A stretch of DNA of 64,000 nt from Oscillospiraceae bacterium (GTDB lineage Bacteria > Bacillota > Clostridia > Oscillospirales > Acutalibacteraceae): assembly GCA_015065935.1 (NCBI GenBank), contig SVPI01000001.1:62001-126000 (forward strand), read 5' to 3'. Shown one piece after another: positions 11,735-21,301 of this stretch. Position numbers and translations under genes: made by a program. Under the pieces are notes generated by a model. That model worked only from the letters and a program-made list of their open reading frames with translations. It did no database searches and was not told where the DNA came from. Each line of letters begins with the position of its first letter. Positions within the stretch are counted from its first letter, which is position 1.

Positions 11735-11796
11735 AAAACTGTAAATTTTCTGAAATGATAAATATAAAGGTTATAGCCTTAAAGGAGGAATATAAA

Positions 11797-13827
11797 GTGA
11801 GAATTGCATTAACAGGCAATCCAAATTCCGGTAAAACAACGATGTATAACGCCCTTACCGGCAGCAACGAAAAGGTTGGAAACTGGGCGGGTGTTACCGT
11901 TGATAAAAAGGAACACCCCATTAAAAAGGCTTATTATAGCGGGGAAGAACAGCTTATTGCCGTTGACCTTCCCGGTGCCTATTCAATGTCGCCTTTTACA
12001 AGTGAGGAAAGCATCACAAGCTCTTATGTTAAAAAGGAAAATCCCGATGTTATTATTAACATTGTGGATGCCACTAACCTAAGCCGTAGTCTTTTCTTTA
12101 CAACCCAGCTTTTAGAACTCCAAATTCCGGTTGTTGTTGCCCTTAATAAGAGCGATATTAACGAGAAAAAGGAAACGGTTATTGATGAAAAAGCCTTAAG
12201 CGAAAAACTGGGTTGCCCTGTTGTTAGCACGGTTTCTACTGCGGCTGATGGTTTAAAGGCTGTCATTGAGGCGGCAGTTGCAAATGTCGGTAAGGAACAG
12301 AAGGCGCCTTATGTTCAGGACAATGTTGATTTAAGCGATAAAAAGGCGGTCCAGTCGGCTGACCGCAAGCGCTTTGCCTTTGTTAATAAAATTGTTGATG
12401 CCGTTGAAACCCGCAAGGTTTTAACTAAGGATAAAAACTTTGGCGATAAGATTGACGCTGTGCTTACAAATAAGTGGCTTGGTATTCCCATTTTCGCCGT
12501 TGTTATGTTTTTCGTTTTCCAAATTTCTCAGGCTTGGGTTGGTCCCTTTATTGCCGAGGGCGGCGAGCTTTTCGGCTTTGAAGTTCCCGGCCTTGTAACC
12601 CTTATTGAAATGTTTGGCGAGTGGGTTGGCGGCCTTATGGAGAATGTGCATCCGCTTCTTTCGGCCCTTGTTGTTGATGGTATAATCGGCGGCGTTGGCG
12701 CTGTTGTAGGATTTTTACCCCTTGTAATGGTAATGTATTTCCTCATTGCTATTCTTGAGGACTGCGGATATATGGCCCGCGTTGCCGTTGTTCTTGACCC
12801 CATCTTTAAAAAGGTTGGTCTTTCGGGCAAATCGGTTATTCCCTTTGTTATTGGTATTGGTTGCGCAATTCCCGGTGTTATGGCTTGCCGCACCATTCGC
12901 AACGAGCGCGAGCGCAGAGCCTCCGCAATGCTGACCCCCTTTATGCCTTGCGGCGCTAAAATCCCCGTAATTTCACTGTTTGCCGGAGCCTTCTTTGATA
13001 ATGCAGGCTGGGTAAGCTGGGCGATGTATCTTTCGGGCATTGTGATTATATTCCTTGGCGCATTGCTTATTAACCAAATTACAGGCTATAAAAACAAAAA
13101 ATCCTTCTTTATTATTGAGTTGCCTGAATATAAGGCACCATCCCTTTTAGGAGCATTTAAGTCAATGTGCTCCCGAGGCTGGTCTTACATAGTTAAAGCG
13201 GCCACCATTATTCTTCTTTGCAACACCGCCGTTCAGATTATGCAGACCTTTAATTGGAACTTCTCGGTTGCCCAAACGGCTGATACCTCCATTCTTGCTA
13301 CCATTTCAGGTCCCTTTGCCTATATCCTTGTGCCCGTTGTGGGCGTTCTTTCCTGGCAGCTTGCCGCAGCGGCCATTACCGGCTTTATTGCAAAGGAAAA
13401 TGTTGTTGGAACTCTGGCTGTTTGCTTTGTTGGCCTTGAAAACCTTATTGACACCGAAGAGCTTGCCCTTATGGAGGGCGCAGGCGCCGAAGTTGCAGGT
13501 GTTATGGCAATCACAAAGGTTGCCGCTTTGGCTTACCTTATGTTCAACCTCTTTACACCTCCTTGCTTTGCCGCAATCGGAGCAATGAACTCCGAAATGA
13601 AGAGCGCAAAATGGCTTTGGGGCGGAATCGGCCTGCAGCTTGCCGTTGGCTTTACCATTGGCTATCTTGTGTACACTGTAGGTACTCTTTTAACAGCCCC
13701 CGCAATGCTTAATGTTATCGGCGCTGTTTGCGGTCTTGTCGCCGTTCTTGTTATGGCAGGCATAATAGTTGCGCTTATCATTAACACAAATAATAAGCTT
13801 AAATCAGCGGCTGAAAAGAGTAAATAG
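11797..13827 (+). CDS. feoB: ferrous iron transport protein FeoB
   Basis: GTG start after AAAGGAGG; GNPNSGKTTMYNALTG, DLPGAYSMSPFTSEE, NKSD, gate motifs; ORF track opens at 11755. Confidence 0.95.
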   Translation: MRIALTGNPNSGKTTMYNALTGSNEKVGNWAGVTVDKKEHPIKKAYYSGEEQLIAVDLPGAYSMSPFTSEESITSSYVKKENPDVIINIVDATNLSRSLFFTTQLLELQIPVVVALNKSDINEKKETVIDEKALSEKLGCPVVSTVSTAADGLKAVIEAAVANVGKEQKAPYVQDNVDLSDKKAVQSADRKRFAFVNKIVDAVETRKVLTKDKNFGDKIDAVLTNKWLGIPIFAVVMFFVFQISQAWVGPFIAEGGELFGFEVPGLVTLIEMFGEWVGGLMENVHPLLSALVVDGIIGGVGAVVGFLPLVMVMYFLIAILEDCGYMARVAVVLDPIFKKVGLSGKSVIPFVIGIGCAIPGVMACRTIRNERERRASAMLTPFMPCGAKIPVISLFAGAFFDNAGWVSWAMYLSGIVIIFLGALLINQITGYKNKKSFFIIELPEYKAPSLLGAFKSMCSRGWSYIVKAATIILLCNTAVQIMQTFNWNFSVAQTADTSILATISGPFAYILVPVVGVLSWQLAAAAITGFIAKENVVGTLAVCFVGLENLIDTEELALMEGAGAEVAGVMAITKVAALAYLMFNLFTPPCFAAIGAMNSEMKSAKWLWGGIGLQLAVGFTIGYLVYTVGTLLTAPAMLNVIGAVCGLVAVLVMAGIIVALIINTNNKLKSAAEKSK

Positions 13828-15158: not shown

Positions 15159-15467
15159 ATGTCAGTATTAGTTGTTACAAAGGATAATTTCAGCGATATT
15201 TTAAAAAGCGAGAAAACAGTTCTCCTCGATTTTTATGCCGATTGGTGCGGCCCCTGCAAAATGATGGCTCCCATTGTTGATGAAATTGCAGAGGAAAATC
15301 CGCAGTACCTTGTGGGCAAAATCAATGTTGATAACGAGCCCGAATTGGCCCAGGAGTTTGGCGTTATGAGTATCCCTACACTTGTTGTCATAAAGGAAGG
15401 AAAGGTTGTAAACCAATCTTTAGGTGCAAGGCCAAAAGATGTTATTCTTGCAATGCTTTGGCAATAG
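15159..15467 (+). CDS. trxA: thioredoxin
   Basis: DFYADWCGPCKMMAPIVDEIA; ATG at 15159 after AGAAAGGAAG. Confidence 0.95.
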   Translation: MSVLVVTKDNFSDILKSEKTVLLDFYADWCGPCKMMAPIVDEIAEENPQYLVGKINVDNEPELAQEFGVMSIPTLVVIKEGKVVNQSLGARPKDVILAMLWQ

Positions 15468-15548
15468 GAGCATATTGTTTAAAAGGTATTTTCTCGTTTT
15501 GCTTAAAAAAGCAGATTGAGAAATGCAGAAAAAAAGGAGGAATAAGTT

Positions 15549-15929
15549 ATGAAAACAAACAAGGATTTACCGTTGCTGTTACTGGATAACAGCGCAATGA
15601 TGTCGGCTCTCAATGAGGGTGAATTCAAATGTCACAACCTCACTTTGGAAGAGGCCAAACATATTCTTGAAATTCACAAAGAAGAGGATGTTTTAAGGTG
15701 CTTTAGCAACAGCGATATTGAAACGGTTATGTATCAATATTTAGGTATTGCAAAGCGAGATTTTGCTTACAAGCACATCCGCAATATGCGGCCTGGACAG
15801 GATGCAATCGTTTTTAAACTTTATGTTACTCCTTCCGAAACTCAGCCCGTAGTTCATGTCGATAATGTGGAGGCCAAGAAAATTCAAAATGTTTATGTTT
15901 ATTGTCAGTACCTTATGAGGATTTCGTAA
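15549..15929 (+). CDS. DUF1874 / STIV orfB116 / YddF-like protein (AcrIII-1 / Crn2 ring nuclease fold family), presumed catalytic His replaced
   Basis: 126 aa; LLLDNSAMMS...GEF...LTLEEAKHIL...LRCFSNSDIETVMYQYLGI...MRPGQDAIVFKL resembles the DUF1874 pattern LLNSA..LTLEEAKELL..SAIGHEATA.LL..LLG..PGDKALVFKL; aligned from memory. Confidence 0.55.
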   Translation: MKTNKDLPLLLLDNSAMMSALNEGEFKCHNLTLEEAKHILEIHKEEDVLRCFSNSDIETVMYQYLGIAKRDFAYKHIRNMRPGQDAIVFKLYVTPSETQPVVHVDNVEAKKIQNVYVYCQYLMRIS

Positions 15930-15930
15930 C

Positions 15931-15968
15931 AAAAGCCAAGCTCTCCTGAAACGGGAGCTTGGCGCTTT
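15931..15968 (+). terminator. terminator-like hairpin upstream of trxB
   Basis: GCCAAGCTC...GAGCTTGGC followed by GCTTTT. Confidence 0.6.
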
Positions 15969-15991
15969 TAAAAATATTGGAAGGTTTAATT

Positions 15992-16915
15992 ATGCAACAA
16001 ATTTTTGATGTGCTCATTATCGGTGGCGGCCCCGCAGGCTACACAGCCGCGCTTTATGCCGCAAGAGCAGGGCTTGACACCCTGGTTTTAGAAAGAATGT
16101 CGGCAGGCGGTCAAATGGCGCTAACGGGGGATATTGAAAATTACCCCGGTTTTGAGGATGGGATTGATGGCTTTACCCTTGGCTTTAAAATGCAGCAGGG
16201 AGCCGAAAAGTTCGGCGCTAAAACCGAATATACCGATGTTTTAGGTGTTGATTTTTCCGAAAAAATTAAAAAGGTTAATACTACCGCAGGCGAATTTTTC
16301 GCCAAAACCGTTATTATTGCCGCGGGGGCAAATCCCAGGGAGTTGGGCCTTCAAAACGAAGCGGCATTTGTGGGCCGCGGGGTTCACTATTGCGCACACT
16401 GTGACGGCAGGTTTTATAAGGATAAAACGGTCGCCGTTATCGGTGGCGGCAACTCTGCCGCGGCCGATGCACTTTATCTTTCAAGGCTTGTAAAAAAGGT
16501 TTATTTAATCCACCGCCGAGATTCTTTAAGGGCGGATAAAATTTACCGCGATCCCTTAAAAACCGCAGAGAATGTGGAAATTTTGTGGGATAACGTAGTA
16601 AGCGAGCTTATTACAGATAAAAGGGTTACAGGTTTAAAAATTAGAAATGTCAAAAGCGGGGAAGAAGAGGAAATTTTCTGCGATGGCGTTTTTGTTAGCA
16701 TTGGCAGAAAACCTGCTACCGAGTTTTTAGGCGGCGCAGTTCGACTTGATGACAGTGGCTATATTGTTGCCGATGAAACCACAAAAACAAGCGTTAACGG
16801 TGTTTATGCCGCAGGAGATATCCGCAAAAAGGCCTTAAGACAAATTGTAACAGCCGTATCTGACGGCGCTACAGCGGTGCACTTTGCTGAGGAATATTTA
16901 GCAGAAGAGTTTTAA
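15992..16915 (+). CDS. trxB: thioredoxin-disulfide reductase
   Basis: GGGPAGYTAALYAARAG, CAHCDG, GGGNSAAADALYL, GVYAAGDIR. Confidence 0.95.
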   Translation: MQQIFDVLIIGGGPAGYTAALYAARAGLDTLVLERMSAGGQMALTGDIENYPGFEDGIDGFTLGFKMQQGAEKFGAKTEYTDVLGVDFSEKIKKVNTTAGEFFAKTVIIAAGANPRELGLQNEAAFVGRGVHYCAHCDGRFYKDKTVAVIGGGNSAAADALYLSRLVKKVYLIHRRDSLRADKIYRDPLKTAENVEILWDNVVSELITDKRVTGLKIRNVKSGEEEEIFCDGVFVSIGRKPATEFLGGAVRLDDSGYIVADETTKTSVNGVYAAGDIRKKALRQIVTAVSDGATAVHFAEEYLAEEF

Positions 16916-20795: not shown

Positions 20796-21161
20796 TTATA
20801 GATTTTCGTAAAATTTCTTTATTGCATCAAAGGATTCATCAGAAATCACATGTTCAATTTTGCAGGCATCAAAATCGGCTGTGGCGTGCTCTATTCCAAG
20901 CTTTTCGAGGAATGCTGTGAGCACCGTGTGCCTGTTATAAATTTTTTGAGCAATTTCTCTGCCGGTTTCGGTAAGTGAAATAAAGGAATTTTCATCAATC
21001 AAAATAAATCCGCCGTTTTTAAGAAGATTAACTGCACGGCTTACACTGGGCTTTGAATAACCTAAATGCTCAACAATATCAATGGAACGCAGGGATGGCT
21101 TTTCTTTAGATAAAATCAGAATGGTTTCAAGGTACATTTCGCCCGATTCTTGTAAATTCAT
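20796..21161 (-). CDS. DtxR/MntR family metal-dependent transcriptional regulator
   Basis: MNLQESGEMYLETILILS, LGYSKPSVSRAVNLLKNGGFI, LTETGREIAQKIYNRHTVLTAFLEKLG. Confidence 0.9.
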   Translation of the reverse strand: MNLQESGEMYLETILILSKEKPSLRSIDIVEHLGYSKPSVSRAVNLLKNGGFILIDENSFISLTETGREIAQKIYNRHTVLTAFLEKLGIEHATADFDACKIEHVISDESFDAIKKFYENL

Positions 21162-21301
21162 TGTTTTTAAACCTCCTTGCACACAAATATACATTATACA
21201 TTATATCACAAATTATTCCATTTGCAAGGAAAAATAGCGAGTTGATTTTCTTTGTGTCTTGTGGTAAACTTATTTTGTTAAATTTTAAAAAAGCTGGTGT
21301 T

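Follow-up and report, generated by a model that had tools for sequence, protein, structure and literature searches.

A clade of proteins with the predicted DUF1874 fold, spread sporadically among gut Clostridia, lacks the catalytic histidine of ring nucleases

Within the 64,000-nucleotide stretch of Oscillospiraceae bacterium DNA that we analysed (hereafter the window), a real open reading frame with an ATG start lies between the thioredoxin gene trxA and the thioredoxin reductase gene trxB, and its 126-residue product has the sequence given in an earlier note on this DNA (Table 1). The hairpin that separates it from trxB folds at -22.6 kcal/mol over 61 nt (z -4.4). Further out, a feoB ferrous iron transporter gene and a regulator of the iron-dependent-repressor family flank the trx region (window 11755-13827 and 20796-21194). 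Elsewhere in the same genome (G000:C5:26361-27263, locus L114), a second thioredoxin-reductase-like gene with 44% identity to the window TrxB carries one in-frame TAA, and a similar interrupted copy is present in the relative G024.

Table 1. Features of the locus, in window positions.
Feature	Position	Strand	Basis
trxA, thioredoxin; flanking, outside the family's conserved context	15159..15467	+	PF00085, E 1e-29
Extra segment of about 0.5 kb (approximate), by comparison with a same-genus genome whose trxA-trxB spacer is 27 bp	15468..15973	+	locus comparison
Ribosome-binding site AAGGAGG, 8 bp upstream of ATG	15534..15540	+	sequence
DUF1874-fold protein without catalytic His, 126 aa	15549..15929	+	Pfam, homologue alignment, AlphaFold model, structure and profile comparisons
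N54 codon, at the ring-nuclease catalytic His position (H47 of SIRV1 gp29, H45 of AFV3-109)	15708..15710	+	hhalign pairing; column 54 in 56 homologues
Intrinsic-terminator-like hairpin and T-run, between the DUF1874-fold gene and trxB	15935..15969	+	RNA fold
trxB, thioredoxin reductase; flanking	15992..16915	+	PF07992, E 1e-51

The earlier note had called the thioredoxin setting unexpected and proposed surveying its gene order across relatives; our comparisons lend no support to any significance of that setting. In a same-genus genome (G001), whose RpoB is, after rounding, 100% identical to that of the window genome across 998 compared columns, trxA and trxB stand 27 bp apart with no DUF1874-fold gene in the spacer, and rpoB lies on the same contig as the trx pair at about the same distance as in the window genome. 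The two genes are adjacent in two further relatives as well, and the window genome has about 0.5 kb extra at this locus, made up of the gene and its terminator. Insertion into the trxA-trxB spacer is the simplest reading of the window locus, because loss in the relatives would take several events; a search for flanking repeats able to explain an insertion found none. The trxA-gene-trxB order is kept in no other homologue. Since the pair is intact without the gene in G001 and the neighbours are not conserved, we reject a functional tie to thioredoxin and regard the setting as an accident. A thioredoxin gene lies 141 bp downstream of the homologue in one unrelated genome (L019:5660-6492); of about 60 loci, this and the window locus are the only two with such a neighbour.

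Assignment of the protein to a family was evaluated at the levels of sequence, profile and predicted structure. PF08960 was its single Pfam match (19.5 bits, E 0.0011), below the gathering cut-off of 26 bits, and a PF08960 search of its own genome at E 0.001 returned no match. Family members behave alike: 43 of the 47 scanned singly match PF08960 weakly (best E 1.3e-4), no other Pfam family recurs among them above chance level, and the His-less clade falls outside the curated limit of PF08960. Profile-profile comparison by hhalign with canonical DUF1874 members gathered from Firmicutes and viral contigs gave a probability of 96 and an E of about 2e-9. With an AlphaFold2 model built from a 47-row alignment (pLDDT 86.6, pTM 0.78) as query, Foldseek against the PDB placed DUF1874 structures at all of ranks 1-15 (prob 1.00, TM about 0.5-0.6), among them entries 8y7f/8y7g (Csx1-Crn2), 2x4i, 2j85, 2j6b and 6scf and the proteins SIRV1 ORF114, STIV B116, AFV3-109 and AcrIII-1, with mostly unrelated folds past rank 15. 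A structure search against viral models likewise had a THSA-485A phage protein and STIV B116 among its top matches. Sequence searches for solved structures gave nothing or chance matches, and searches of PHROGs and NCBIfam with the 126-residue protein gave no match. Because the Pfam, profile-profile and structure levels concur, we consider the predicted DUF1874 (STIV B116 / AcrIII-1 / Crn2) fold secure; the earlier note had proposed it, naming the lack of a structural match as what would count against it, and the proposal stands.

Its second proposal, that Asn occupies the catalytic His position, also holds and reaches further than the window copy. Both hhalign profile alignments place N54 opposite the His of the GHxxT motif, which carries the catalytic residue of AcrIII-1 and Crn2, and across 56 distinct homologues column 54 holds Asn in 42, Asp in 11 and Arg, Ser and Gly once each, never His. 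A conserved His elsewhere, which the earlier note held would undo its claim, was sought in every column of these 56 homologues and not found; all of them carry either His or Tyr at position 43. AFV3-109 has Asn6, His45, Thr48, Arg64, Arg83 and Glu86 at its conserved pocket and dimer contact (PMC1796864), and we mapped these residues onto the clade through the profile alignment. Asn6 corresponds to the invariant N14 (56/56), Glu86 to E97 (retained in 52/56) and Arg64 to position 76 (R, H or K in 47/56), while position 57, for Thr48, is mostly Ile or Leu and position 94, for Arg83, is Thr in 51/56. Of the Asn6/Thr48/Arg83/Glu86 set expected of AcrIII-1/Crn2, the window protein thus keeps the Asn and the Glu, with Ile57 for the Thr and Thr94 for the Arg. 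Read through these alignments, loss of the predicted ring-nuclease catalytic site is shown to be clade-wide. In AcrIII-1, H47 acts as general acid (PMC12830947; PMC7371418), and the H495A substitution in Csx1-Crn2 abolishes cA4 cleavage (PMC7293037); by this His chemistry, canonical ring-nuclease activity is not to be expected of the clade. Canonical Firmicute members of PF08960 differ in this respect, as six of seven retain the catalytic His and the clade never does; the remaining one (L073, genome G541) has Tyr in its place (RIGYPATADY). Polar residues that are invariant, or nearly so, and peculiar to the clade are K75, R78, N79, Q84, D85, Y92, S96, Q99, K110, K111, Q113 and N114.

More than 55 homologues were recovered, at 51-86% identity over almost the full length and all in other Clostridia genomes: 52 loci came from one scan of genome contigs, and an order-level search added carriers. 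Conservation on this scale puts the reading frame well past anything expected by chance. Carriers are mostly gut metagenome genomes (many of them metagenome assemblies), and named strains include [Clostridium] asparagiforme DSM 15981. Within the order, the gene is present in about 11 of 295 genomes. An order-wide profile search for intermediate sequences with the His returned none, its matches being either at E < 1e-59 or noise, and by this measure the clade is sharply bounded. Mean column identity in the homologue alignment is 74% and dN/dS is 0.003-0.07 in pairs with measurable dS, values that indicate strong purifying selection on the gene. For this gene the RpoB topology is rejected (delta lnL 133, p-AU 3e-17), and pairwise gene identities do not correlate with those of RpoB (Mantel r 0.09, p 0.31). 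As the gene tree conflicts with RpoB and genomic context is unshared, these comparisons show that it has moved laterally from one host lineage to another as a stand-alone single gene. Carrier GC3 tracks that of the host (r 0.88), so in most lineages the transfers are not recent. The distribution among gut Clostridia is sporadic and chromosomal, and we read it as that of a gene which moves between lineages, persists long enough to ameliorate and is retained by strong selection.

The surroundings of the homologues describe the same unit. Around about 60 homologues no recurring neighbour families were found: 100 adjacent genes (called by a simple ORF rule) hold 133 Pfam families, each at most twice, neighbour clusters are common to a few loci only, and the neighbours are mostly housekeeping genes. 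Where close homologues lie in different surroundings, DNA similarity takes in the gene itself plus at most about 160-220 bp of upstream sequence, beyond which it is lost. Of 55 homologues, just 1 is followed by a same-strand gene at 60 bp or less, and most have a downstream hairpin followed by a T-run. Given the rarity of close downstream genes, these 3' ends and the unshared neighbours, we conclude that the family is a monocistronic, self-contained gene unit. A perfect 12/12 sigma-A promoter, TTGACA-(16-18)-TATAAT, stands upstream of 24/56 homologues as compared with 8/144 neighbouring genes with similar spacers, which served as the control set; matches of at least 11/12 occur in 37/56 homologue upstream regions versus 29/144 (Fisher p about 1e-9 for the enrichment). 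Judged by these predicted promoters, the family would be highly expressed. The window copy has no consensus promoter (9/12 at best), which fits its probable co-transcription with trxA up to its own terminator. No conserved operator was found at the homologue promoters, save an AT-rich upstream region. Near-perfect sigma-A promoters precede most homologues, L007, L010, L013 and L023 among them, and in some homologues inverted TTGCAA-type repeats lie across the -35 box and could be operator sites.

We then consider association with defence systems and mobile elements. The earlier note had seen the window to be free of type III CRISPR genes, and this extends to the genome, where the Cas10 palm domain is absent from the 87.5%-complete assembly. 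Among carriers, some of them from outside the background order, Cas10 occurs in 4 of 50 (2 over cut-off) as against 26 of the 295 genomes of the order (17 over cut-off), and a SMODS CD-NTase occurs in 1 of 50. With Cas10 at background rate and CD-NTases this rare, a link to type III CRISPR or CBASS is rejected, and since most carrier genomes have neither Cas10 nor CD-NTases, cyclic oligoadenylate becomes a less likely ligand. Searches of INPHARED phages and IMG/VR viral contigs, sensitive mainly to close relatives, found no homologues. The association with type III loci or viruses that typifies AcrIII-1 and Crn2 is thus not seen in this clade, and we also reject phage or plasmid carriage, as the sole 'plasmid' match looks chromosomal. 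That match (L074; OY725849.1, Subdoligranulum 'plasmid 15') carries genes read by eye as dnaK, grpE and an adenine-deaminase-like gene and resembles a chromosomal contig.

Taking these observations as a whole, we favour, on balance, a domesticated, His-less, laterally spread DUF1874 clade, other than a ring nuclease, whose members would be non-catalytic dimeric cradles binding a host nucleotide-type ligand. Most likely the product would form the usual DUF1874 homodimeric cradle, and this would bind a nucleotide-type ligand of the host or nucleic acid with no His-driven cleavage; the protein may then be a constitutive, strongly expressed binder, acting as sensor or sequestering protein. An old anti-CRISPR fold is probably doing a strongly conserved host job. 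More tentatively, the anti-CRISPR ring-nuclease fold might have been domesticated as a widely transferred, strongly expressed receptor or sequesterer of a nucleotide signal that gut Clostridia would use independently of CRISPR and CBASS. The members presumably lack catalysis, yet an alternative site made from the clade's own invariant or near-invariant polar residues might exist, and a phosphodiesterase or RNA-processing enzyme with its active site rearranged on such residues is the alternative that we weigh most seriously, while thinking it unlikely. Many of these residues are foreign to canonical DUF1874 and E97 is retained, but the catalytic His, Thr and Arg are all replaced and no conserved His is available as general acid, position 43 holding His or Tyr.

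Two other readings strike us as rather improbable, and to about the same degree. As a host sponge or decoy, the protein would bind cyclic oligoadenylate, or the cyclic nucleotides of CBASS, and leave them uncleaved, thereby modulating or blocking type III CRISPR or CBASS signalling. It shares its fold with AcrIII-1/Crn2, whose His-to-Ala form (AcrIII-1) retains high-affinity cA4 binding (PMC7213978), and a strong promoter would fit a stoichiometric sponge; the frequencies of Cas10 and CD-NTase given above speak against it, however, as do the absence from phages and viral contigs, the mostly housekeeping neighbours and the replacement of the Arg83 equivalent and the site Thr. A transcription-factor-like DNA binder was once proposed for AFV3-109 from the shape of its cradle, its dimer resembling the E2/EBNA1 DNA-binding modules (PMC1796864), and the near-invariant basic residues K75, R78, K110 and K111 would suit such a role, but the family behind that proposal later proved to contain ring nucleases and the homologues share no common operator upstream. 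Least probable is a redox role in functional connection with the thioredoxin system: the position between trxA and trxB, the thioredoxin gene at L019 and the nearly invariant Cys51 and Cys119 would speak for it, whereas the intact trxA-trxB pair of the same-genus genome, the count of just two loci in about 60 near trxA and neighbour families seen at most twice each tell against it.

Automatic 'anti-CRISPR' or 'ring nuclease' names for clade proteins would mislead, and homologues in named strains such as the one above make the clade testable. Set against known systems, the clade resembles AcrIII-1/Crn2 (PF08960; 6scf, 2x4i, 8y7f) in predicted fold, size, the pocket Asn and Glu and the 'GxxAxVFKL' strand, and differs in lacking the site His, Thr and Arg, in its C-terminal motif (TPSETQP...EAKKIQNVYVYCQYL) and in standing outside any CRISPR, phage or defence-island context. 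Csx15, Csx16, Csx20 and Crn4 are small proteins of the wider ring-nuclease field, and none of them is named in the first 50 PDB matches; 25% of Csx15 cases likewise lack a type III locus (PMC12409355). With AFV3-109, STIV B116 and B. subtilis YddF the clade shares the fold, the stand-alone single domain and the existence of Firmicute members, but YddF lies in an integrated element and members of the AFV3-109/STIV B116 type are virus-borne (PMC1796864), whereas this clade is chromosomal amid housekeeping genes. In the literature that we found, DUF1874 figures solely as a cA4 ring nuclease that is viral or linked to CRISPR; the spread through gut Clostridia of a clade that is large, highly constrained, CRISPR-independent and site-less suggests at least one further role for the fold.
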